This document shows positions 6,987 through 57,609 of a DNA stretch of 64,000 nt, in pieces. The stretch covers positions 182,166 to 246,165 of the forward strand of contig JAPLKU010000014.1 of assembly GCA_026387935.1 (NCBI GenBank). The letters are read 5' to 3'. The DNA is from Gemmatimonadota bacterium. GTDB taxonomy: Bacteria; Gemmatimonadota; Gemmatimonadetes; Gemmatimonadales; Gemmatimonadaceae. The notes beneath the pieces were generated by a model. That model worked only from the letters and a program-made list of their open reading frames with translations, was not told the origin of the DNA and searched no databases. The first letter of the stretch is position 1. Each line of letters opens with the position of its first letter. A program made the translations under genes and the position numbers.

Positions 6987-7616
6987 TTACCGCTCGACGC
7001 AGTCGGTTGGCGCGACGCCCGGCTTTGGTTTCGACAATGAGAAGTTGAAGTCCGTCTCATTGGAGCAGAAAAAGAGCACCACGTCGAGTGCGGTAGACGT
7101 TTCGCCAAAGGAAAGCGGTCGCGTCGTGGTAGCCGACCCGATGCGCAGGATAGCGACGTTCGCCACTTCGGTCAGTCGCGGATCGTCCGCGCATTTGCCA
7201 AACGACGACACCTGCGTGGCCGCGTTGACGCCCGTGCGACAGATCGCGATGTACACCGGGCTCGTGCAGCTGCTGCCAACGAGCAGCAACGCCGCGCCGC
7301 CATTCGCAAACGCTGGGTACTGCGTGGGGTGATTTTCAGCAACGATCGTACTTGGCGCACAGATCGTCCCGAACGATCCGTTTGGCGGCGGCGTGGGCAC
7401 CGTGGTCGATGGGAGGCCCGTCTTCCCCGCGCTCCAGCTCGCGTTAATCCGGTACGCCGGAAATGCGATTCTGTTGTCTGTACCCGTGTTCGCTGTACCG
7501 GGGTCAGTGGTGCCGGAGGCAATGCAGCCCGCTGACGCAAGCAGGAACATCGCGGCGGCGACCTCGGTATTGCGCGTCGCGCGCGCTGCGAATGTCATCA
7601 ATCGACTCACAAACAC
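6987..7616 (-). CDS. Hypothetical lipoprotein
   Basis: Lipobox-like LLASAGC after hydrophobic N-terminus; starts directly after the acetamidase stop in the same direction. Confidence 0.6.
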   Translation of the reverse strand: MFVSRLMTFAARATRNTEVAAAMFLLASAGCIASGTTDPGTANTGTDNRIAFPAYRINASWSAGKTGLPSTTVPTPPPNGSFGTICAPSTIVAENHPTQYPAFANGGAALLLVGSSCTSPVYIAICRTGVNAATQVSSFGKCADDPRLTEVANVAILRIGSATTTRPLSFGETSTALDVVLFFCSNETDFNFSLSKPKPGVAPTDCVER

Positions 7617-8815: not shown

Positions 8816-10581
8816 CATCCGCCGTACACCGTCCGCCCACCCGTCACCGTCCGCACGATCTTGACGTCCTTGATGGTGTTCGGGTCACCATCGTGCGGAT
8901 CACGGTCGAGGATCACGAAGTCGGCGAGCTTGCCGGCGGTGATCGTGCCCTTGATGTTCTCCTCGAACGACGCATACGCCCCGTTCAGGGTGTTGATCCG
9001 AATCGCTTCGTCCACGGAAACGCGCTGGTTGAGGCCCCACGTGGTGCCGTCCCAGCCTCTGCGCGTGACCATGCCTTGGATGCCCATCAACGGGGCAAAT
9101 GGCCCAGGGCTGAAGTCCGACCCGGCCGCGGCGTGGATGCCGGCGTCGAGCATTGAGCGGAACGCCATGCTCCGCTTCATCAGGTCCTCGCCATAGAACG
9201 GGAACTTGTCGGTGTTGTAGTACGCGTACGTCGTGAAGCAGGCCGGGATCGCATCGAGCGCCTTGATGCGCCGGATGAGGTCGTCGTTGATCAGCGTGCA
9301 GTGCGTAATCTTGGGCCGGAAGTCTTTCCGCGGGAACGCCTTCTGCGCGCGCTCGACGGCAGTGAGATAACTGTCGATGGCCACGTCGCCATTGGCGTGG
9401 ATGTTCACCTGGATACCGGCGCGGTGCACCTTCTCGACCCAGGCGTCGAGGACGTCCTGCGTCTCGGTGACATTCCCCTTGTAGCCGTTCTGGCCCGGAT
9501 AGGGCGTACTCAACGCCATCGTGCGCTCGGAGAATGAGCCATCCACGGAGTGCTCCGAGGTGGCGCCGAACCTGACCCACTCGTCGCCGAAGCCGGTCTT
9601 GATACCGTTGGCGATCATCGTGTCCACCATGCCGCCCTGCGCTTCGTAACTCACGCGGTGCAGCAGATCGCCGCGCGCGCGGACGTCCTGGATGGCGGCG
9701 AGGTCGCCGCCCTCGTGGTGCACGCTGGTGAGACCGTAGCGCGCGAACTCCTTGGAGATATGCGCGATGCCATCGCGGTCGCGCTGGGCGCGTTGCTCGG
9801 GAGTGTACTGCGCTCGCGTCCCTACGCGGTTGAACGGTGCCGTAGCGCGGTCGGTCACCCGGCCATTCAGTTCCCCGCTCGCGTCCTTATCGTATGTGCC
9901 GCCGGGCACATTCGGCGTGTTCTTCGTGATGCCCGCCATCGCGAACGCTTTGCTGTTGTAGAACGACGTGTGACCGCCGCGGTGCCGAACGACCACGGGG
10001 TGCTCGGTGGACACTTTGTCGAGGTCGCTGGTATTCAGCGGGCGCTTGTCCTTGAGCTTGGTGTCGTCGTGGAAGTAGCCCTCGATCCAGGTGCCCGGCG
10101 GTGACTGCTGCGCCTTGGCCTTGAGCTTGTCGATGATGCTCTGGATGGTGACGAACTCGACCTCGAACGGGTTGCCGACCAGTACTTCATATAGAAGCGT
10201 CGTGCCGCCCGCATGGTTGTGCGTGTCAATGAAGCCGGGCACGACCGTCATGCGCGCAGCATCGATGACCTTCGTGCTTGCGTTGGCAAGATTGCGGATG
10301 TCGGCGTTGGAGCCGACCGCGAGGAAACGCCCTTCGCGTATCGCGATGGCCTCGGCGCGGGGCTGGGCCGCATCCTGTGTGAGCACGCGCGCGTTCACGA
10401 CGATCGTGTCGGCGACGACGCCCGCTCCTCGCTGGCGCATGGGAGGGAGTGGCGATCCGAGCGGCGCGCTCGGCGACGCATTGCCCATCGGCGCCTCGAG
10501 CGCTGACAACTGCTTCGCACCAAGCGAGCCGGCGACGAGCGCGCCGAGTCCGAGAAAATCCTTGCGGGTGTACTTCGACAT
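8815..10581 (-). CDS. Amidohydrolase family protein (YtcJ-like), Tat-type signal
   Basis: MSKYTRKDFLGLGALVAGSLGA; VPGFIDTHNHAGG; GIQVNIHANGDVAID; DFVILDRDPHDGDPNTIKDVKIVRTVTGGRTVYGG. Confidence 0.93.
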   Translation of the reverse strand: MSKYTRKDFLGLGALVAGSLGAKQLSALEAPMGNASPSAPLGSPLPPMRQRGAGVVADTIVVNARVLTQDAAQPRAEAIAIREGRFLAVGSNADIRNLANASTKVIDAARMTVVPGFIDTHNHAGGTTLLYEVLVGNPFEVEFVTIQSIIDKLKAKAQQSPPGTWIEGYFHDDTKLKDKRPLNTSDLDKVSTEHPVVVRHRGGHTSFYNSKAFAMAGITKNTPNVPGGTYDKDASGELNGRVTDRATAPFNRVGTRAQYTPEQRAQRDRDGIAHISKEFARYGLTSVHHEGGDLAAIQDVRARGDLLHRVSYEAQGGMVDTMIANGIKTGFGDEWVRFGATSEHSVDGSFSERTMALSTPYPGQNGYKGNVTETQDVLDAWVEKVHRAGIQVNIHANGDVAIDSYLTAVERAQKAFPRKDFRPKITHCTLINDDLIRRIKALDAIPACFTTYAYYNTDKFPFYGEDLMKRSMAFRSMLDAGIHAAAGSDFSPGPFAPLMGIQGMVTRRGWDGTTWGLNQRVSVDEAIRINTLNGAYASFEENIKGTITAGKLADFVILDRDPHDGDPNTIKDVKIVRTVTGGRTVYGG

Positions 10582-47023: not shown

Positions 47024-47797
47024 TCAGGCTTTCCGAAACCACGGCACGAACGCGCTGGTCGTGCGCTGGTACTCGCGGTACGCGTCGCCCTTGCTCTTCA
47101 CCGCGTACTCCTCGGTCAACGGAATGCCGGTGACCTTGAAGAGGAAGTAGAGCATGAGCAGCGGGCAGGCGATGGTAATCCAGCCCCAGGGCGAGCCGAG
47201 TGCGACCAGGAAGAACCCCCACCAGACGAGCGACTCGAAGAAGTAGTTCGGGTGCCGCGAGTAACGCCACAGCCCCACCTGGCAAACCTTGCCGCGGCTC
47301 GACGGATCGCGCTTGAACGCCTGCATCTGCAGGTCGGCGAGCGCTTCACCGAGCAGGGCAATGGCAGCCAATGCGAGCCCGGCGATTTCCACGAGCCGGA
47401 GTTCCGGCGCCGCGTTGTACGACGCAAAGACGAACGGCAGCGAAAACACGACCACCAGCATCGCCTGCAATTCGAAGAACACGAGGAACCGGCCCGCGCC
47501 CGGCCAGCGCTGGCGCAGCGTCTGGTAGCGCGCGTCCTCCGCCGGGTGGTGCCCCACGACGCGCACGAGAATGTAGGTGCCGAGTCGCAGGCTCCACGCA
47601 ACGCCGACCGCCGCAACAGCCCACTTCCGCAGTGGCAACCCCGGAGCCAGCCAGGCGTAGGTCGGCGCGAGAATGGCCACGCCATACGAAAACGCCACAT
47701 CGAGCAGTCCATAGTTCTTGATGCGCACACTGATCGCCCAGGTCACCGCGAAGTACGTAACGGCAATCGCGAACCCGATGCCAAGGAGCCCGATCAT
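47024..47797 (-). CDS. DUF1295 / steroid 5-alpha-reductase-like membrane protein
   Basis: MIGLLGIGFAIAVTYFAVTWAISVRIKNYGLLDVAFSYGVAILA; GLWRYSRHPNYFFESLVWWGFFL. Confidence 0.92.
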   Translation of the reverse strand: MIGLLGIGFAIAVTYFAVTWAISVRIKNYGLLDVAFSYGVAILAPTYAWLAPGLPLRKWAVAAVGVAWSLRLGTYILVRVVGHHPAEDARYQTLRQRWPGAGRFLVFFELQAMLVVVFSLPFVFASYNAAPELRLVEIAGLALAAIALLGEALADLQMQAFKRDPSSRGKVCQVGLWRYSRHPNYFFESLVWWGFFLVALGSPWGWITIACPLLMLYFLFKVTGIPLTEEYAVKSKGDAYREYQRTTSAFVPWFRKA

Positions 47798-48309
47798 GAT
47801 TCCCCTGGCGCAGTTGCGCGCGCCAGTGCGCGTAGCGCCGGGCGGACGGAGAAATAGACGGCACCGGCGATGATCGGGGCGACCAGGCACCAGACCGCGA
47901 TGCCCTGCACCGCCACCAGCCCGAAGTCAGCGAAGAACTTTCCAGTGTCGGCACGGAACCGCTCAATCAGCATCGGGATTGACAGCGGCAGATGCGGTTG
48001 CCGAAAGAGCGTCTCACCGGCGCGGTAGAACGGAATCAGCGCGAGCAGCTGCAAAGGGTACGCGACGTAGTTGACCAGCTGGATGATCGGCTGGTTGAGT
48101 CCCAGCCGGACGGCTGCCAAACCACAGAGGATCGTCGTTGCACCAAGAATCGGAAACACGCCGAGCACCAGCCCAAGCGCAATCGTCAATGAAATCTTTT
48201 CGGGCGTGATGCCCTGACGCAGCTGATTGACGAGCGGCGTGACCACGCGCCGCGTCCAGACCGAATGGGCCGGAGCGAGGAGCGTGGCAGCGGCTTCGGA
48301 ATCACTCAT
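47794..48309 (-). CDS. DUF2062 membrane protein
   Basis: GITPEKISLTIALGLVLGVFPILGATTILCGLAAVRLGLNQPIIQLVNYVAYPLQL. Confidence 0.88.
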   Translation of the reverse strand: MSDSEAAATLLAPAHSVWTRRVVTPLVNQLRQGITPEKISLTIALGLVLGVFPILGATTILCGLAAVRLGLNQPIIQLVNYVAYPLQLLALIPFYRAGETLFRQPHLPLSIPMLIERFRADTGKFFADFGLVAVQGIAVWCLVAPIIAGAVYFSVRPALRALARATAPGES

Positions 48310-48321
48310 CGCTGGTTGCGT

Positions 48322-49635
48322 CTACCACTCCTGATGAAGCGCGCGGTTGTTCGGCCGTGTGTACACCGCCTGCACCACACTGATGTTGCGGCTGGCAAAG
48401 GCGGCTTCGCAGTACTGAAGGTAGTAGTTCCACTTCCGGATGAACCGCTCGTCGAAGCCCAGCGACCGAACGGCGGGCAGCTGCGCATTGAAGTTTTCCC
48501 ACCACGCATGGAGCGTGCGGGCATAGCTGGAGCCGATATCCTCGAGGTCGTGCAGAAAGAGGTCACCCGTCCGACTGAGCGCTTCGTTCACGCGGCCGAC
48601 GCTGAGCAGCAGCGAACCCGGGAAGATGTGCTTCTGAATCCAATCGACGCCGCGCTTCAGTTCGGCGTGGCGTGAGTCCGGGACCGTGATGTACTGCACG
48701 CCCACGAGACCGCCGGGCTTGAGCACGGCATGAATCTTCGCGAAGTAGGTCTCGAGGTATCGGTCGCCAATGGCTTCCATCATCTCGATGGACACCACCT
48801 TCTCGAACTGCCCTTCGAGCAGGCGGTAGTCACGCAACTGCACGTCAACGCGGTCCGTCAGACCTGCGTTGAACACGCGCTCCTTGGCGAAGATGTACTG
48901 TTGCTCCGAAATGGTCACGGTCGTGACGCGGCAACGGTAGTGCTTGGCCGCATGGCAGGCAAAGCCGCCCCAGCCGCTGCCGATTTCGAGCACATGGTCG
49001 CTCGCCTGAATGTGCAGCTTTCGGCAAAGGGCCTCGTACTTCGCCACCTGCGCCAACTCGAGCGACTGTTCTGGCGCCGTGAAGTAGGCGCTGGAATAGG
49101 TCATCGTGCGGTCGAGCCAGAGTCGGTAGAACTCGTTGCCGAGGTCGTAGTGCTCGGCGATGTTGCGCCGGCTCGTGGCCATGCTGTTCGGGCGCAGCTG
49201 GTGCAGCACGCGGTTGTACGACTTGAGCAGGTTCAACGCGAGGCTGCGCGCCTTCGAACCCGACATCGCCGGCGAGTTCTCCACGTTAAGGACTGCCCAC
49301 GCGATGACGTTGGAAATGCTATCCGTTTCCCAGTCGCCGTCTACGTAGCTCTCGCCAAAGCCCACATCGCCGAAGAGCACGCACTTCTGGAAGAACGCGG
49401 GGTTGAGCACGCGGATGTGCGCGCTGGTGGCAGCGCCCGGCGTGCCAATCACCATCGTCGCACCGTCCGGGAGGTCGAGCCGCAGGCAGCCGGCCGTCAT
49501 TTTACGGAGCGAGTCGAGCACGATTCGCTGGTACAACCCGCCGGCTGCAACGGCGCTGCTCGCCGCGCTGCTCGGTTTGGTCGGTTGCGCCGCGACGCCG
49601 AACGAGGTGGAGTGGGCAGATGTGGATTCAGTCAT
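48322..49635 (-). CDS. Cyclopropane-fatty-acyl-phospholipid synthase family SAM methyltransferase
   Basis: NIAEHYDLGNEFYRLWLDRTMTYSSAYF; VLEIGSGWGGFACHAAKHY; EKVVSIEMMEAIGDRYLETYFAKIHAVLKPGG. Confidence 0.95.
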   Translation of the reverse strand: MTESTSAHSTSFGVAAQPTKPSSAASSAVAAGGLYQRIVLDSLRKMTAGCLRLDLPDGATMVIGTPGAATSAHIRVLNPAFFQKCVLFGDVGFGESYVDGDWETDSISNVIAWAVLNVENSPAMSGSKARSLALNLLKSYNRVLHQLRPNSMATSRRNIAEHYDLGNEFYRLWLDRTMTYSSAYFTAPEQSLELAQVAKYEALCRKLHIQASDHVLEIGSGWGGFACHAAKHYRCRVTTVTISEQQYIFAKERVFNAGLTDRVDVQLRDYRLLEGQFEKVVSIEMMEAIGDRYLETYFAKIHAVLKPGGLVGVQYITVPDSRHAELKRGVDWIQKHIFPGSLLLSVGRVNEALSRTGDLFLHDLEDIGSSYARTLHAWWENFNAQLPAVRSLGFDERFIRKWNYYLQYCEAAFASRNISVVQAVYTRPNNRALHQEW

Positions 49636-50435
49636 GATGCCGTTCGGGAAATGGATGCGTGTGGCCTGAGGACGCCGCGTTGCAGACTGGCGTTGGCTTC
49701 CTTGCGATGCCAGGGAATGCGCTTCAGCCAGAGCAGCGCCGCGTGCGCGTGGATCAGGCCGATCACCTTGAGCGTGATGAGCGGGTACTTCAGCGTGAAC
49801 CAGGCGAGGCGCGCAGCCGTGAGCGGCTCGCGCCGGCCGGTGAGTGACGTGAGCAGGACACGATCGCTGCCGTCGCGGTCATCAATGTGAATGTCGAGAC
49901 GCTCATCCGGAACGCGAAGCTTGAACTCGAATGCCAGGTTCAGGTCGAAGAACGGCGAGACGTAGAAGTGTTTTGGCGTCAGGCGCCGAAACTGGCCGTC
50001 GCCGGCGCGTTCATCGATCAGGTAGGGTTTGAGTTCGCCGTACGTGTTGCCGACTTCGGCGATCGCGTAGAGCGGCCGGCCCTCCGCGTCGGAGCAGAAG
50101 TAGAACGAGACCGGATTGAACACGTGCCCGAGCACGCGCGGCAGCGTCACGAGCAGCATGCGGCCGCCCGCCGGAAACTCGATTCCCTGCGCGGCCAGCC
50201 ACCCGATCACCTGGTCTTTGACGCTCGTCGTCTCGCGTCCGGGCAACGTCAGGTGATCCCGGTCGCGAAAGGCGTACAGATTGGCGCGGTTGCGACTGAA
50301 GAACGGAATGCGCGCGGCCACGGCGTCGATCTCGTCGAGATCCAGCGCGAACATGAAGATGCGATACCGGAAGTGGTGCACCTTCGGCGCGAGCCGATGA
50401 TGCATCACTCGGCACTCGTACAGGCAGGAGTTCAT
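49632..50435 (-). CDS. DUF1365 protein
   Basis: MNSCLYECRVMHHRLAPKVHHFRYRIFMFALDLDEID; RVLGHVFNPVSFYFC; LTPKHFYVSPFFDLN. Confidence 0.93.
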   Translation of the reverse strand: MNSCLYECRVMHHRLAPKVHHFRYRIFMFALDLDEIDAVAARIPFFSRNRANLYAFRDRDHLTLPGRETTSVKDQVIGWLAAQGIEFPAGGRMLLVTLPRVLGHVFNPVSFYFCSDAEGRPLYAIAEVGNTYGELKPYLIDERAGDGQFRRLTPKHFYVSPFFDLNLAFEFKLRVPDERLDIHIDDRDGSDRVLLTSLTGRREPLTAARLAWFTLKYPLITLKVIGLIHAHAALLWLKRIPWHRKEANASLQRGVLRPHASISRTAS

Positions 50436-51706
50436 GCCCAGATCGCCTCGCCGGTAACGGCGCGGGCGCATTCAAGCGCGCTGGTGAATCCGTCCTCGTG
50501 GAAGCCGTACTTGAACCACGCCCCGGCGTAGTACGTCGCCTGCTCCGGACTGATCCGGTTGAGCTGCGGCAGCTCGCGTTGCGCCGCGACCGCCGCGGTG
50601 TCGAAGAGCGGATGCTCGTACTCGATACGGCGCAGAACTTTCTCCGGCGCCACACGGTCGTGGCAATTGAGCGACACGAAATAGTCCTCGCGCTCCGACA
50701 CGCCTTGCAGGCTGTTCATCCAGTAGTGAATAGTCGGCCGCTCAGTGCCGTCCGTCATCGGATCGATTCGGTAGTTCCAGCTCGCCCAGCACAGGCGCGT
50801 ACGCGGCATGAACGACGGATCGGTGTGCAGCGTCGCCGTGTTCGGCTGGTACCTGAAGGCGCCAAGCAACCGCGACTCGGTATCCGTCGGGTCGGCCAGC
50901 AGCGCGAGCGCCTGATCGCCATGACAGGCGAGGATGACTTTGTCAAAGTCGCGCACTCGGCCGGCTGCGTCGGTGACCATGGCGCGACTTCCGCGCCGCT
51001 CCACGCGCACGGCCCTGTTCCACAGTTGAACGCGGTCGCCGAATGGTGCGGTAATCTTCTTGACGTAGGACTGCGCGCCGCCCACAACGGTATACCACTG
51101 ATGCTGCGTGCGCATGCCGAGGAACCCGTGATTGTGCCAGAAGCGAATCAGCGTCATGGCGGGAAAGTCGAGCATCCGGTCCGGGGGCGTACTCCACACG
51201 GAGGCGCTCATCGGCACGAGGTAGCGCTGCAACATGTCATCGCCGTACCCGCGTTCCTTGACGTACTGGCCAAGCGTATGTCCCGCCCAACGCGGGTCAT
51301 CGAGCGCGCCGACCGCCTCGTCGTTGAAGCGATTGATGGCCATCAGCATGCGCCAGTGCCGCAGGCTGAGCAGGTTGCACCGCTGCCCGAATAGCTGACC
51401 CAGACTGCTCCCGTTGTACTCGAGGCCGCTGGGCGTATGCTGCACGCTGAACGACATCTCGGTGGGCTTGGTCTGCACGTCCAGTTCGCGGAACAGCCGC
51501 GTGAGGTTCGGATACGTGACATGGTTGAACACCATGAACCCCGTATCGATCGGCACGGCGCGGCCCTGCTCGTTGACCGTGATCGTGTTGGTGTGGCCGC
51601 CGACGTAGTCGTTCTGCTCGTAGAGCGTCAGGTCAAACCGCTCGTGCAAGAAATGCGCACAGCCAAGTCCAGCGACCCCCGTGCCGATGATGGCGAGGGT
51701 CTTCAC
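50432..51706 (-). CDS. FAD-dependent oxidoreductase (amine-oxidase fold, NAD(P)-binding)
   Basis: MKTLAIIGTGVAGLGCAHFLHERFDLTLYEQNDYVGGHTNTI; AWFKYGFHEDGFTSALECA. Confidence 0.95.
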   Translation of the reverse strand: MKTLAIIGTGVAGLGCAHFLHERFDLTLYEQNDYVGGHTNTITVNEQGRAVPIDTGFMVFNHVTYPNLTRLFRELDVQTKPTEMSFSVQHTPSGLEYNGSSLGQLFGQRCNLLSLRHWRMLMAINRFNDEAVGALDDPRWAGHTLGQYVKERGYGDDMLQRYLVPMSASVWSTPPDRMLDFPAMTLIRFWHNHGFLGMRTQHQWYTVVGGAQSYVKKITAPFGDRVQLWNRAVRVERRGSRAMVTDAAGRVRDFDKVILACHGDQALALLADPTDTESRLLGAFRYQPNTATLHTDPSFMPRTRLCWASWNYRIDPMTDGTERPTIHYWMNSLQGVSEREDYFVSLNCHDRVAPEKVLRRIEYEHPLFDTAAVAAQRELPQLNRISPEQATYYAGAWFKYGFHEDGFTSALECARAVTGEAIWA

Positions 51707-52686
51707 TGCGCGGCTCGTACGGCCTGCGCCTCATCGTACACGCTTCGTGGAACCGATTTCAGGTTCCAGATCAACCCGGTCCAGGACAACGCCTTCAGTG
51801 CGTAGTAGGTCGGATCAAACTCCCACCAGTAGAAGCCCTGACGGGCGGCACCCATGAAACGGTGGTGGTTGTTGTGCCAGCCTTCTCCCAGCGTGATGAG
51901 CGCCAGCACGAAACTGTTCCGGCTGTCGTCGCCGGTGTTGAAACGCCGCCGCCCCATGACATGTGCGAGCGAGTTGATGAAGAAGGTTCCGTGTAGCAGC
52001 ACCGCCGTGCTGACAAAGAACCCCCAGACGAACAGCTGACCGCCCGACGTACCCAGACCGGGTGCGACGGAACCAAGCAGCGCACCGACCCCGTAGAGCA
52101 GTGCGCCGAATAGTGCAGGCACGATGAGATCGAAGCGGTTGAGGAAGACGAGTTCAGGGTACTTCGCCAGATCGCGAACGGCATCATAGTCAGTAGGGAA
52201 ATTGCGGCTGCTGGTCATCCAGCCGATGTGGGACCACCAAAATCCGGTCAAGCCCGGTGAATGCACGTCGTGATCAGTATCGGCGTGCTTGTGATGATGG
52301 CGGTGGACCGCCGCCCACCAGAGCGGGCCCCGCTGCACTGACGTATTTCCGAGAACCGCAAACGCGAACTGCGTCCAGCGTGCGGTGCGAAATGTCCGAT
52401 GCGAGAAGTACCGGTGATAGAATGCCGTTATCGCGAACATCCGCACCCAATACAGCGCCGTGGCCACGACCACCGCCGTCCAACTCCAGCCCACCCACAC
52501 CAGGCCAACACAACCCAGGTGCAGAAAGACAAACGGAAGGCAGCGGCGCCACTCGAACCGGTCGGGCCGCTCACGCACGACCTGCGCCCCTTCCGGGAAG
52601 TAGTCAGAGTCGAACCACTGACGCATCGTCACCAGAGCGCGGTGCAGAGGATGGCTGCCAGCGACAGGAACGGTGGAGGTCGACAT
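51703..52686 (-). CDS. Acyl-CoA/acyl-lipid fatty acid desaturase
   Basis: Three His boxes HRYFSH, HRHHHKHAD, HNNHHRF; TM segments. Confidence 0.94.
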   Translation of the reverse strand: MSTSTVPVAGSHPLHRALVTMRQWFDSDYFPEGAQVVRERPDRFEWRRCLPFVFLHLGCVGLVWVGWSWTAVVVATALYWVRMFAITAFYHRYFSHRTFRTARWTQFAFAVLGNTSVQRGPLWWAAVHRHHHKHADTDHDVHSPGLTGFWWSHIGWMTSSRNFPTDYDAVRDLAKYPELVFLNRFDLIVPALFGALLYGVGALLGSVAPGLGTSGGQLFVWGFFVSTAVLLHGTFFINSLAHVMGRRRFNTGDDSRNSFVLALITLGEGWHNNHHRFMGAARQGFYWWEFDPTYYALKALSWTGLIWNLKSVPRSVYDEAQAVRAAQ

Positions 52687-52712
52687 CTGCGGTCGGGGCG
52701 GGAGGGGACGAT

Positions 52713-53333
52713 CTAGCGGGACGCGTGCACAGCAGCCGGTATGCGAGCAGGCACGCCGGTCGGCAAAACGGTTCCCGCGTGCGACTCGAGCGAGTCGAGT
52801 GTGGCCGCAAGCCCTGCAGCCGCGCCGGCGGTAAACCGGCCGTCAGTGCGCCAGAGAATCCTACCGTCGCGCGCCACCAGAAAGGTGCTGATCCGATCTT
52901 CCGTCGCGATGGCCAACGCCTTTTTGAACGGCGACTTGTCGATGTAGAGCGTGATCGTTGCTTCACGGGTCGCGCGCTCGGGGATACCCCGCGACATGCC
53001 GCCGTCAATGAAGCCCCGCATGAACCGGTACGTCTTGTTCAAAGTGGGCAGCTCATACACGCGCACGTGGCGGGCTGGAGTAGCCACCTCGCGCAAAAAC
53101 GGAAGCCAAGTATCAACGTCATTCTGCTGTTCCCGCCGAAAGGCGACCAGGACGATGTTGTAGTCGCCCTCAAAGTCGGTAGGAAGCGTGAACCTCCGGC
53201 CCTCGAGGTTGCTCCCCTCAACGCGCGGAAACTGCCGAATGGAATCAACCATGGAGGTCTGCGGAATTTCGGCAAAATACGTTCGCTCTGGGCCGAGTCC
53301 GAACACAAGCAGCAGGGCGGCTATGGTATTCAT
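52713..53333 (-). CDS. Hypothetical protein with thioredoxin-like character
   Basis: FEGDYNIVLVAFRREQQNDVDTWLPFLRE...ISTFLVARDGRILWRTDGRFT; resembles thioredoxin-fold order without CxxC. Confidence 0.65.
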   Translation of the reverse strand: MNTIAALLLVFGLGPERTYFAEIPQTSMVDSIRQFPRVEGSNLEGRRFTLPTDFEGDYNIVLVAFRREQQNDVDTWLPFLREVATPARHVRVYELPTLNKTYRFMRGFIDGGMSRGIPERATREATITLYIDKSPFKKALAIATEDRISTFLVARDGRILWRTDGRFTAGAAAGLAATLDSLESHAGTVLPTGVPARIPAAVHASR

Positions 53334-53437: not shown

Positions 53438-53962
53438 CTACTTCGCGGCCGGCGGCATCACCACCGCGTCGATCACGTGAATCACGCCATTCGAGGCGGC
53501 CACGTCGGCGATCACCACCTGTGCACCGTTCACATACACCTTACCGCCCTTCACCTGGATGTCGAGCGCCGCGCCGTTCAGCGTGGCCGGCTTCGCGCCG
53601 TTGCCCTTGATCACGTCAGCAGCCATCACCTTGCCCGACACGACATGGTAGGTCAGGATGGAGGCGAGCTTCTTCGGGTCCTTGAGCAGCGCGTCAATCG
53701 TGCCGGCCGGGAGCTTTGCGAAGGCCGCGTCGGTCGGGGCGAACACGGTGAACGGGCCCGCTCCCTGCAGCGCACCAACGAGGTCGGCAGCCTTGAGGGC
53801 CGTGACCAGCGTCTTGAACGAACCGTTCGCGATCGCGACGTCCACGATCGTGTTGCTCTTGCTCATGTTGTCGTGTTTTTCAGCGGTCATCTGTGCACTT
53901 CCGGTGGTGGAGTTGAGGAGCAGGCCCGCGAGCGAAAGAACTACCATCTTCGTGCTGATCAT
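53438..53962 (-). CDS. Fasciclin-domain secreted protein
   Basis: [54 protein letters not shown]...[13 protein letters not shown]. Confidence 0.93.
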
Positions 53963-54017
53963 CCGATTCGTCCTCGAGTGTTGTTGTGGCTTTGTCCAGC
54001 GTGTGAGCATGAGTATC

Positions 54018-54096
54018 GCTAGACAACTTACGTTTGTCAAGAGGTTGTCCATGTCTATATCTTGACAATGCGTAGACAATCAATAGATTTGACCAA
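54018..54096. promoter_or_regulatory. Divergent promoter/operator with 11-bp-spaced TNNACA half-sites
   Basis: TAGACA 54020(+), TTGACA 54035-54040(-), TGGACA 54046-54051(-), TTGACA 54062-54067(+), TAGACA 54073-54078(+); pairs at 11 bp; -35/-10 candidates on both strands. Confidence 0.6.
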
Positions 54097-55053
54097 ATGG
54101 ATGAAACACTCCTTGAACCTGCAGGACTGCCCGGCGCTGAACACCCAATTGCCGTGGTGGCCGAGCGCACGGGCCTCTCCCGCGACGTCCTGCGGGTGTG
54201 GGAACGGCGCTATTCGGCGGTTGCGCCAACCCGGACCCCGGGCGGCCAGCGCCTCTATTCTGACGCCGATGTCGCCCGCTTTCGTCTGCTCGCCGCCGCA
54301 ACGAAGCACGGACGGAGCATCAGCATGGTGGCCGGTCTCCCCACGGCCGAGCTTGAACGCCTTGTGGCCGAAGACGAGGCGGCCCGCCCAGCTGCCGCGC
54401 CCGTCCCACTCGCCGATGCCCACGCCGAACGTGTTTTACTTGCCCTGGAGCACACCCGGGCGCTCGACGGCACCAGCCTCGACCGCGTGATGCGTCGCGC
54501 CATCGCCCAGTTCGGCCTGTCGGCATTTCTCGAAGACATCGTGCCTCACTTGATGCACAGAATTGGCGACGAATGGCGTGGCGAACGGCTCACCATTGCA
54601 CAAGAACACCTCGCGTCGGCCGCCGTCGTCGCCATCATCCTCGAATCCATTCGCGCCGTTCCCGAAGCACCGGATGCGCCGCGCCTGCTCGTCACGACTC
54701 CGTCCGGCGAACGCCACGCCGTAGGCGCGGCACTCGCGGCTGCCGCCGCCGCCATTGATGGGTGGACGGTGATCTATCTCGGCGTCGACGTTCCCGCGGC
54801 TGACATCGCGACGGCCGCTGCGACCACCGGCGTCCGCGCCGTGGCACTGAGCGTGGTCTACGCCGACGATCCCGCGCAAATCTCAAGGGAACTGCATGCC
54901 TTGCGTGCGAAGCTCGCGCCCAACGTTCCTCTCCTTGTCGGCGGCGTCGCTGCGATGCTGATGTCAGCGGAACTGGAGCAACCTGGCATGGTCCTCTGCG
55001 GAAGTATCGCCGAGATGCGCGCGGTACTCGCGCGCGAGGCGATCGCCGCGTGA
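54097..55053 (+). CDS. MerR-family regulator with cobalamin-binding domain (CarH/LitR-type photoreceptor)
   Basis: HTH VAERTGLSRDVLRVWERRYSAVAPTRTPGGQRLYSDADVARF; WRGERLTIAQEH (W-x9-EH); GERHAVGA (ExHxxG); TVIYLGVDVPAADI Rossmann-like domain. Confidence 0.92.
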   Translation: MDETLLEPAGLPGAEHPIAVVAERTGLSRDVLRVWERRYSAVAPTRTPGGQRLYSDADVARFRLLAAATKHGRSISMVAGLPTAELERLVAEDEAARPAAAPVPLADAHAERVLLALEHTRALDGTSLDRVMRRAIAQFGLSAFLEDIVPHLMHRIGDEWRGERLTIAQEHLASAAVVAIILESIRAVPEAPDAPRLLVTTPSGERHAVGAALAAAAAAIDGWTVIYLGVDVPAADIATAAATTGVRAVALSVVYADDPAQISRELHALRAKLAPNVPLLVGGVAAMLMSAELEQPGMVLCGSIAEMRAVLAREAIAA

Positions 55054-55517
55054 CGCACCGACTCGCGCGAACCACTGTGTTGCCCGGGACCGTCAGTCAG
55101 GTGTTCGAGTTCTTCAAGAACCCACGCAATCTCGAAGCGATCACGCCTCCCTGGCTTGGGTTCCGGATTCTCTCCACGAGCGACGAGACGGTGCGTGAAG
55201 GCACGCGCATCCGGTATAGGCTGCGCCTTTTCGGGATTCCGCTCGCGTGGGAATCGCGCATTACCGAATATGCAGGCGATTCGCACTTCGCCGATGAGCA
55301 GGTGACCGGCCCCTATGCACTCTGGTACCACCGCCACCTCTTCCGTCAGTTGCCGGAGGGCGTCGAAATGACCGATGACGTCGAGTATCGCCTGCCGTTC
55401 GGTCCGCTCGGACGGCTCGTGCACTGGCTCGTTGTCCGTCACCAACTCCGCGCCATCTTTGACTATCGCACGGCTGCGATCGCCCAACGTTTCCCCACCA
55501 CGAGGCCCGTCACATGA
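55050..55517 (+). CDS. SRPBCC-family protein
   Basis: TTVLPGTVSQVFEFFKNPRNLEAITPPWLGFRIL...DDVEYRLPFGPLGRLVH; overlaps regulator by 4 nt. Confidence 0.88.
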   Translation: MTHRLARTTVLPGTVSQVFEFFKNPRNLEAITPPWLGFRILSTSDETVREGTRIRYRLRLFGIPLAWESRITEYAGDSHFADEQVTGPYALWYHRHLFRQLPEGVEMTDDVEYRLPFGPLGRLVHWLVVRHQLRAIFDYRTAAIAQRFPTTRPVT

Positions 55518-55912
55518 ACACCCTGTCGTTCCTGAAGAGCTTCGCCGCCACCGGCGCGACGATGTTTGCGCTCGACATGGTCTGGCTCGGTGTGGTGGCG
55601 AAAGGGCTGTACGCGCGCGAAATGGGCTCGTTGCTCCGACCCGATGTGAAATGGGTGCCGGCCCTGCTCTTCTACATTCTGTATGTGGCGGCAGTGGTCG
55701 TGTTTGTCGTGATCCCCGCCGCAGAGCGAAAGTCGCTCGCGCGCGCACTCGGGTTCGGTGCGTTTTTCGGGCTCGCGGCGTACGCGACCTACGACCTGAC
55801 GAGCCTCGCGCTCATTCGGGATTTCCCTGTGCTCATCGTGATCGTTGACCTCGCCTGGGGCATGGTGCTCACGACCATCGCGTCGGGCGCAGGGTACGCG
55901 GTAACGCGGTAG
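55514..55912 (+). CDS. DUF2177 membrane protein
   Basis: TMFALDMVWLGVVAKGLYAREMGSLLRPDVKWVPALLFYILYVAAVVVFVV...YATYDLTSLALIRDFPVLIVIVDLAWGMVLT. Confidence 0.92.
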   Translation: MNTLSFLKSFAATGATMFALDMVWLGVVAKGLYAREMGSLLRPDVKWVPALLFYILYVAAVVVFVVIPAAERKSLARALGFGAFFGLAAYATYDLTSLALIRDFPVLIVIVDLAWGMVLTTIASGAGYAVTR

Positions 55913-56127: not shown

Positions 56128-57609
56128 CTACCGCGGGAACGGGCTCGCGAATCGAATGTCGTTGAGGAATGTCTGATCCGTCAGCGTAGCGAGGAACGCC
56201 ACCAGGGCGGCGCGTTCGGCGGCGGTCAGATTCAGGCGCTGCGGCTGCCCGCCGCGCCCGCCCACCAACCGCGGATCGAGCCCCGGGTTGGGCTGGACAC
56301 CGGAATCATAGAAGGCCACGACCTGGTCGAGCGACGTGAAACGACCGTCGTGCATGTAGCGCCCACGCACGGCGACGTTGCGCAGTGAAGGCACTTTGAA
56401 CGTGCCTCCCCCGGCACCGACATCCGTGATGGTTGCATCGAGACCGGTGTTGTGGATGTCGTCGGCGCTCAACGCGACTGTGGTGTGGCAGCGCGCACAG
56501 TTCGGGCCAAAGAGCGCGAACCCCTGCTGCTCCTGCGGCGTGAATACCGTCGCCGTCCCGCCGGTCGCGGTCAATGCTTGATCGAACTTGGCGCCGCCGG
56601 AAACCAGGGAGCGCACGAATTGCGCCACCGCGAGCGCAATCCGCTCTCTGGTGATCGTCGACGTCCCGAACGCAGCAGTGAATAACGCAGGATAGTAAGC
56701 CGTTAAGGCCAGCTTCTTCTCCAGCAGATCGAGCGTCATGCCCATTTCGACCGTGTCCTGAATGGGCCGCAGCACCTGATCCTCAAGAGTGACTGCGCGT
56801 TCGTCCCAGAAGAACCGGCCGCGCGCGTAATACCGTGCATTGGCGAGCGACATCGAGTGGCGGCCGGTGAAGCCGCCCTTGAAGCCGCCGCTCAGGCGGG
56901 CCGTGTCGGCAAAACCGCGCGATTGCACGTGACACGATGCGCAGGCCTGCGCGTCGTTGGCGGAAAGTCGTTTGTCATAGAACAGCACGCGCCCGAGCGC
57001 TGCGCCGGCGTTGGTGACGGGATTGCTGGCCGGCGTGTTGTCGAAGGCGTTCGCGCCCCCAAGGCCCCCGCCACCGCCGGGCGGCCCGCCCGCTGCACGG
57101 AAGTGCGCCGGCACATTGCCGTCGGCGTCGGAATACTTAAGTGAAGGATCGAGCGTGGGTGTTGCGAGGCCGGCCGCGAACGCAATGACGTCGAACGCAT
57201 CTGTCGCCGTCGCTCCCGCGCCGTCTGTTGCCGTGATCGTGACCGATACGAGGCCCGTGGTCGCCGGGGTGCCACTCAACTTCCCGGCAGCCGCCACCAA
57301 ACCGTTGGCTGCCGGCACAAGCGTGACCGTGTACGTGAGCCCCTTCCCCGCGACGTCCTTGAAGGTGGTGTTGCCGCGCGTAGCGTCGTAACTGAACACC
57401 GTACCTACGGTCGCAGCCTGCGACGGGTTGTGCGTGGCGAGTGTGACCGGGCCAGCCGCCGGCGTGGTGCCGGTCGTGGTGCCGGTCGTGGTGCCAGTGC
57501 CTTTCGGGGCCGTGGCGGCCGGCGTCGAATCCGACGAGCCGGCGCAACTGGCGCAGCAGACCAAGCCTGCGAGTGCGGCGACAGAGCGTATGAAGGTGTG
57601 TGTGCGCAT
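56128..57609 (-). CDS. Di-heme cytochrome c peroxidase/MauG-type lipoprotein with Ig-like N-terminal domain
   Basis: Lipobox region LVCCASC; two CxxCH (ACASCHVQSRGF, NCARCHTTVAL); VPSLRNVAVRGRYMHDGRFTSLDQVVAFYDSG. Confidence 0.92.
   Translation of the reverse strand: MRTHTFIRSVAALAGLVCCASCAGSSDSTPAATAPKGTGTTTGTTTGTTPAAGPVTLATHNPSQAATVGTVFSYDATRGNTTFKDVAGKGLTYTVTLVPAANGLVAAAGKLSGTPATTGLVSVTITATDGAGATATDAFDVIAFAAGLATPTLDPSLKYSDADGNVPAHFRAAGGPPGGGGGLGGANAFDNTPASNPVTNAGAALGRVLFYDKRLSANDAQACASCHVQSRGFADTARLSGGFKGGFTGRHSMSLANARYYARGRFFWDERAVTLEDQVLRPIQDTVEMGMTLDLLEKKLALTAYYPALFTAAFGTSTITRERIALAVAQFVRSLVSGGAKFDQALTATGGTATVFTPQEQQGFALFGPNCARCHTTVALSADDIHNTGLDATITDVGAGGGTFKVPSLRNVAVRGRYMHDGRFTSLDQVVAFYDSGVQPNPGLDPRLVGGRGGQPQRLNLTAAERAALVAFLATLTDQTFLNDIRFASPFPR
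57463..57502 (+). repeat. 12-bp tandem repeat (gtgccggtcgtg) x ~3 inside the cytochrome c peroxidase gene
   Basis: tggtgccggtcgtggtgccggtcgtggtgccagtgcc encodes the GTTTGTTTGTTP linker. Confidence 0.75.

Follow-up and report, generated by a model that had tools for sequence, protein, structure and literature searches.

A putative CarH operator shared by carH and a divergent fasciclin-led gene cluster in a Gemmatimonadota bacterium

AdoCbl-bound CarH is known to bind 11-bp DNA repeats in the dark and to leave them in the light (PMC9304148, PMC8156234). The published repeat, 5′-nnnnTnnACAn-3′, lies over the −35 or −10 element (PMC9304148), and the operators known for CarH either line up three or four repeats in tandem, all facing the same way, or combine degenerate repeats with one or two full ones. 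The locus described here, part of a window of 64,000 nt (the whole stretch of Gemmatimonadota DNA that was analyzed), instead carries two repeats in each direction. The Thermus thermophilus operator consists of three tandem 11-bp repeats (nAnnTnnACAn), one of which covers the −35 element. The two loci have in common the 11-bp period, the TNNACA core, the −35 overlap, and a MerR-B12 regulator with the Wx9EH motif, whereas the window differs in having two repeats in each of two directions, two promoters, a phased third site, and a cluster without a carotenoid gene. In Bacillus megaterium, the −35 or −10 element is covered by four repeats in tandem or by three with an additional degenerate one. 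These operators share with ours the TNNACA 11-bp repeats covering promoter elements but run in one direction and have more tandem repeats.

Myxobacterial CarH/CarA operators, which include the divergent crtI-carH regions of Sorangiineae with their one full and two or three degenerate repeats (PMC9304148), resemble our locus in their plastic design, in their use in a divergent region beside carH, and in being able to work with fewer than three full repeats. Their targets, however, are carotenoid genes, and conserved head-to-head pairs at a fixed 26–27 bp have not been reported for them. Class II LitR of Pseudomonas recognizes TGTACA-N12-TGTACA, with one site over the −35 element and a second between the transcription start and the start codon (PMC9758184); it shares with our locus the two sites per promoter, the second lying downstream of the transcription start (like O3 below), but differs in its 18 bp spacing, its independence of B12, and its action through a LOV protein. 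Similar outputs (fasciclin and fatty-acid-modifying enzymes) are found in the RpoE-ChrR photo-oxidative regulons of Alphaproteobacteria (RSP_1409, furan fatty acid genes), although these are under sigma/anti-sigma control by singlet oxygen rather than a B12 photoreceptor. Among the open-licence papers searched, we found none on CarH in Gemmatimonadota, on CarH operators there, or on CarH together with fasciclin, an earlier description elsewhere being possible.

The operator region of the window lies between carH and a divergent operon led by a fasciclin gene (Table 1). Six TNNACA matches fall within nt. 54018–54096, with a seventh (O3) just outside on the reverse strand. Two pairs of these matches, O1 and O2, both show an 11-bp period and stand head to head over two divergent, perfect TTGACA −35 boxes; as in described CarH operators, 11-bp repeats with a TnnACA core overlap promoter elements. 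The first-pass annotation of this DNA had placed the motifs at positions that proved exact on re-reading of the sequence, and we agree with its assignment of both TTGACA elements as divergent −35 boxes with the −10 hexamers and spacers listed in Table 1. Its count of five half-sites was upheld only in part: both 11-bp pairs are conserved, whereas the proposed fifth site, TAGACA at nt. 54020, is matched in none of the other 31 regions of the alignment (1/32), and the conserved O3 had been missed. The TAGACA between O2 and O1 was also set aside as an operator half-site, being out of register and having a counterpart in only a few close relatives (L004).

Table 1. Sites and genes of the carH–fasciclin divergent region, in window coordinates.
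Feature	Position (nt.)	Strand	Remarks
O1 pair TTGACA-N5-TAGACA	54062–54078	+	TTGACA (54062–54067) is the carH −35 box; TAGACA (54073–54078) in promoter spacer
O2 pair TGGACA-N5-TTGACA	54035–54051	-	TTGACA (54040–54035) is the fasciclin operon −35; TGGACA (54051–54046) 11 bp upstream of it
O3, third site TGGACA	53993–53998	-	42 bp downstream of divergent −35; ~+7 to +12 of the fasciclin transcript (predicted transcription start)
−10 element GATACT, divergent promoter	54012–54017	-	17-bp spacer; identical GATACT at same spacing in ortholog L005
−10 element TAGATT, carH promoter	54084–54089	+	16-bp spacer; 7 nt before carH ATG
TAGACA of the first-pass annotation	54020–54025	+	Probably a chance match
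Extra TAGACA between O2 and O1	54052–54057	-	Out of 11-bp register
CarH-type MerR/B12-binding regulator (carH)	54097–55053	+	Pfam MerR_1, B12-binding, B12-binding_2
SRPBCC-like (Polyketide_cyc) and DUF2177 genes	55050–55912	+	Start codons overlap preceding gene; carH operon; syntenic in congeners
Fasciclin (FAS1) protein, first gene of divergent operon	53438–53962	-	ATG at 53962; PF02469, E = 2e-40
Remaining divergent cluster	47024–53333	-	206-aa protein, fatty acid desaturase, FAD amine-oxidase-like, DUF1365, CMAS/cyclopropane synthase-like, DUF2062, DUF1295

The protein encoded next to the repeats scored above the cut-offs of PF13411, PF02607, and PF02310, giving it the N-terminal MerR domain and the C-terminal four-helix-bundle and B12-binding domains that CarH requires. 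Its best solved relative was Thermus CarH (5c8d, E = 3e-29), to which it comes very close in its recognition helix and wing (GLSRDVLRVWERRY...RTPGGQRLYS). The Wx9EH motif is present (W160, E170, H171), and 46 of the 47 orthologs in the alignment retain its Trp, Glu, and His; the cobalamin motifs (ExHxxG...SxV...GG, here GERHAVG, SVV, and VGG) are present as well, the lower axial His again occurring in 46/47. At the position beside the motif Trp, where Thermus CarH has His132, the residue that forms the bis-His adduct of the light state, the window protein carries Arg and 28 of the 47 orthologs carry His; this position does not belong to either of the two motifs by which CarH is defined (PMC8156234). 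With the NCBIfam CarH model NF052513, the protein reached 133.5 bits against an equivalog cut-off of 400, this still being its best-scoring NCBIfam family. Judged by these profiles, the window protein is a CarH homolog, but not an equivalog by the NF052513 model. Its named relatives are Gemmatimonadota MAGs, and the best match for its clade (described below) lies within Gemmatimonadota.

The Arg at the bis-His position bears on whether light is the signal at all. The regulator could bind the same sites as a B12-dependent or other-signal repressor that senses apo and holo states with no real light response, for which there are precedents in family members that are not light sensors themselves: CarA, which works without B12 (PMC8156234), and class II LitR, which signals via a LOV protein (PMC9758184). 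We consider this improbable, given that almost all orthologs preserve Wx9EH, the motif that defines CarH as an AdoCbl photosensor, and that the target genes resemble photo-oxidative stress genes. The sequence also leaves room for control by another MerR-type protein.

We gathered CarH homologs from 61 relatives and 181 family genomes and read the strand-oriented upstream DNA of 75 of them. In these regions, the spacing between TNNACA sites on the same strand peaked at 11 bp (forward 32 and reverse 48, the averages per spacing being 1.5 and 3.5), and reverse-to-forward offsets peaked at 27 bp (41) and 26 bp (15). Strict pairs were found on the forward strand in 32 regions, on the reverse strand in 39, and on both in 23, where shuffling led us to expect 0.21, 0.18, and 0, the shuffles preserving single-base composition only and the related genomes not being independent. 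A 16-position score for both head-to-head pairs reached at least 14 in 32 of the 75 regions, while the best of 222 shuffled regions scored 12. Among these 32 best regions, the two TTGACA elements were 27 bp apart in 22, 26 bp in nine, and 25 bp in one, and the strict forward 11-bp partner (O1) was present in 23. As a whole-genome control, we counted 13 matches to the full divergent pattern in the 181 genomes, all 13 directly upstream of carH, against none for the reversed pattern; it occurs once in the window's own genome. This control, together with the conservation of the partner half-sites in at least 14 genera of two families, guards against the limits of composition-only shuffles and kinship. 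A lone TNNACA-N5-TNNACA pair, by comparison, means little and was rejected as evidence, since its 23 matches in the own genome did not exceed the 30 of the reversed control.

The two head-to-head pairs are not a chance arrangement. The first-pass annotation had proposed that they form CarH-type operators, with 11-bp TnnACA repeats placed on two divergent −35 boxes; a search for the 11-bp spacing at orthologous regulators strongly favors that reading, both in the 32 of 75 regions scoring at least 14/16 and in the 13/13 genome matches at carH; the adjoining gene is indeed of the CarH type. DNA-level BLAST with the intergenic region returned almost no matches (one other match was a second operator in the G161 genome, described below), indicating that the sites are kept and the remaining spacer is not. 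Outside Gemmatimonadota, 11-bp repeats were present upstream of CarH but without the peak at 26–27 bp. A simpler account would be that TTGACA is conserved only as the −35 box of two sigma-A promoters and that the other TNNACA matches are incidental, as both boxes are perfect and stand 16–17 bp from −10-like hexamers. We hold this to be highly improbable, because sigma-A needs no TNNACA at the places where the partners stand, 11 bp from each box, in the promoter spacer in one case and upstream of the −35 in the other, and yet they are conserved; the third site is located past the divergent −10 element, on its downstream side.

This third site recurs across the group. A further TNNACA on the reverse strand was found 42–44 bp from the divergent −35 element in 21 of the 32 regions and at 31–33 bp in nine, where other offsets averaged 0.12. 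On the forward side, the only offset with conserved sites is 11, and on the reverse side O3 lies at 31–33/42–44; no third tandem repeat was conserved among the full repeats in either direction in these 32 regions, leaving two full repeats per direction. At ~10.5 bp per turn, the 42 bp between O2 and O3 correspond to 4.0 turns (distances of 42–44 and 31–33 bp from the −35 half-site amount to four and three turns), while the 26–27 bp between O1 and O2 correspond to about 2.5–2.6 turns. As O3 stands a whole number of turns from the −35 half-site, O2 and O3 would lie on one face of the helix, and at 27 bp (about 2.6 turns) O1 and O2 would lie on opposite faces. Helical arithmetic of this kind points to separate CarH oligomers on O1 and O2, bound from opposite faces, and, from the shared face, to cooperation between O2 and O3.

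Alternatively, a single CarH tetramer may bridge both promoters (O1, and O2 with O3) by wrapping or bending the DNA. The exact retention of the 26–27 bp spacing is what one spanning complex would predict, and the Thermus tetramer uses only three of its four DNA-binding domains (PMC9304148). Known tetramers, however, bind one face of the DNA, and about 2.6 turns put the two pairs on opposite sides of the helix, so we regard bridging as unlikely and favor separate oligomers.

Counted from the first T of the −35 box, the start codon chosen for carH comes 33–37 nt later in 24 of the 32 regions, at exactly 35 nt in 15 of them, and three more regions have an alternative in-frame carH start within the same range. 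Given that the start codon sits where transcription should begin, the carH mRNA is probably leaderless in the window (nt. 54084–54099) and in most orthologs.

On the divergent side, a FAS1-like ORF faces carH in most of the 32 regions, and three other genomes (G003, G005, and G176) preserve the order of the whole cluster. The close spacing of its genes suggests that the cluster is co-transcribed. It includes a 206-aa protein (nt. 52713–53333, reverse strand) with no Pfam or NCBIfam match, which is conserved with the cluster in relatives. At four loci with the same operator (L013, L034, L038, and L052), a small membrane protein of ~72–85 aa (MKKLDVVAAxLLVxGGxNWGLVG), and not fasciclin, is the product of the divergent gene. 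Beyond the carH operon lies an adjoining gene for an MbnH/MauG-like di-haem cytochrome c peroxidase (nt. 56128–57609, reverse strand).

The operator is located at this lipid-modification/fasciclin cluster and not at carotenoid genes. Strict repeat pairs with TTGACA occur only at this locus in the own genome, whose single phytoene/squalene synthase gene is on another contig (C18), with no strict repeat pair nearby. In relatives, 19 of 29 matches to the stringent pattern TTGACAN5TNGACA lie at carH by their coordinates. The G161 genome has a second divergent operator before an FAD amine-oxidase-like gene ~7 kb from carH (L121 ~8855–8898; G161:C25:12852–12898), and in G057 a repeat pair precedes the ATG of a fatty acid desaturase gene by 35 bp (L122 ~7564–7580; G057:C4:552563–552579). 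Both genes are homologs of window cluster genes, which argues that the operator goes with its target genes when the cluster splits. The G057 desaturase has the same leaderless-looking design as carH.

The nature of these targets makes a photo-protective role of the divergent operon in the envelope likely by analogy. Fasciclin proteins are members of alphaproteobacterial singlet-oxygen regulons (RSP_1409, PMC7074977; an Azospirillum fasciclin, as cited in PMC10949492), as are furan fatty acid genes (PMC6852236), and in Vibrio blue light induces a gene for cyclopropane synthase (PMC5241685).

We propose, with a probability of roughly 0.85, that one CarH operator-promoter region is shared by two divergent units, including carH itself, both of which would be repressed in the dark and released in the light. 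In the dark, AdoCbl-bound CarH, whose binding is predicted by homology, would sit on the repeats over both promoters and block sigma-A RNA polymerase at the carH operon (autorepression) as well as at the fasciclin/desaturase/FAD-oxidase/DUF1365/CMAS/DUF1295 operon. Light would cleave AdoCbl, CarH would leave the DNA, and both units would be expressed, their products probably protecting or remodeling the envelope against photo-oxidation. Counting against this proposal are the two repeats per direction, the Arg at the bis-His position, and the missed NCBIfam cut-off. We would give even odds to the more specific version, a bidirectional CarH light switch of undescribed geometry in which opposite-face pairs at a fixed 26–27 bp and a phased third site gate a leaderless, self-repressing carH and a fasciclin/membrane-lipid operon rather than carotenoid genes. 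Light control of this kind would extend the reach of B12 photoreceptors to Gemmatimonadota and to a non-carotenoid output, fasciclin together with enzymes that modify fatty acids, which is known elsewhere from the singlet-oxygen regulons under sigma-E/ChrR. The fixed spacing of the sites offers a ready test of CarH oligomer occupancy at two opposed promoters, and compact divergent promoters under green-light control would be useful genetic parts.

Maximum-likelihood analysis of 77 proteins placed the window CarH in a clade of 25 rows (support 100/99), of which 23 of the 24 with upstream DNA show the divergent architecture; the remaining one has a pair on the forward strand and a single site on the reverse strand. 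In 12 rows of a separate, 14-row clade there is an inverted repeat (TTGACA-N11-TGTCNA) in the −35/−10 spacer and not the 11-bp direct repeats. The G176 genome belongs to the genus of this inverted-repeat clade, yet it pairs a window-clade CarH with a direct-repeat operator, indicating that the operator type tracks the protein and not the species. The inverted-repeat clade allows one to ask how one repressor family shifts between direct-repeat and classical MerR-like sites. Its members come mostly from one genus (g47; L056, L059–L064, L067, L069, and L071), and their site resembles a classical MerR site. A further clade of CarH paralogs (genus g13; L042, L044–L047, L054, and L055) is preceded by upstream DNA without a recognizable repeat operator.
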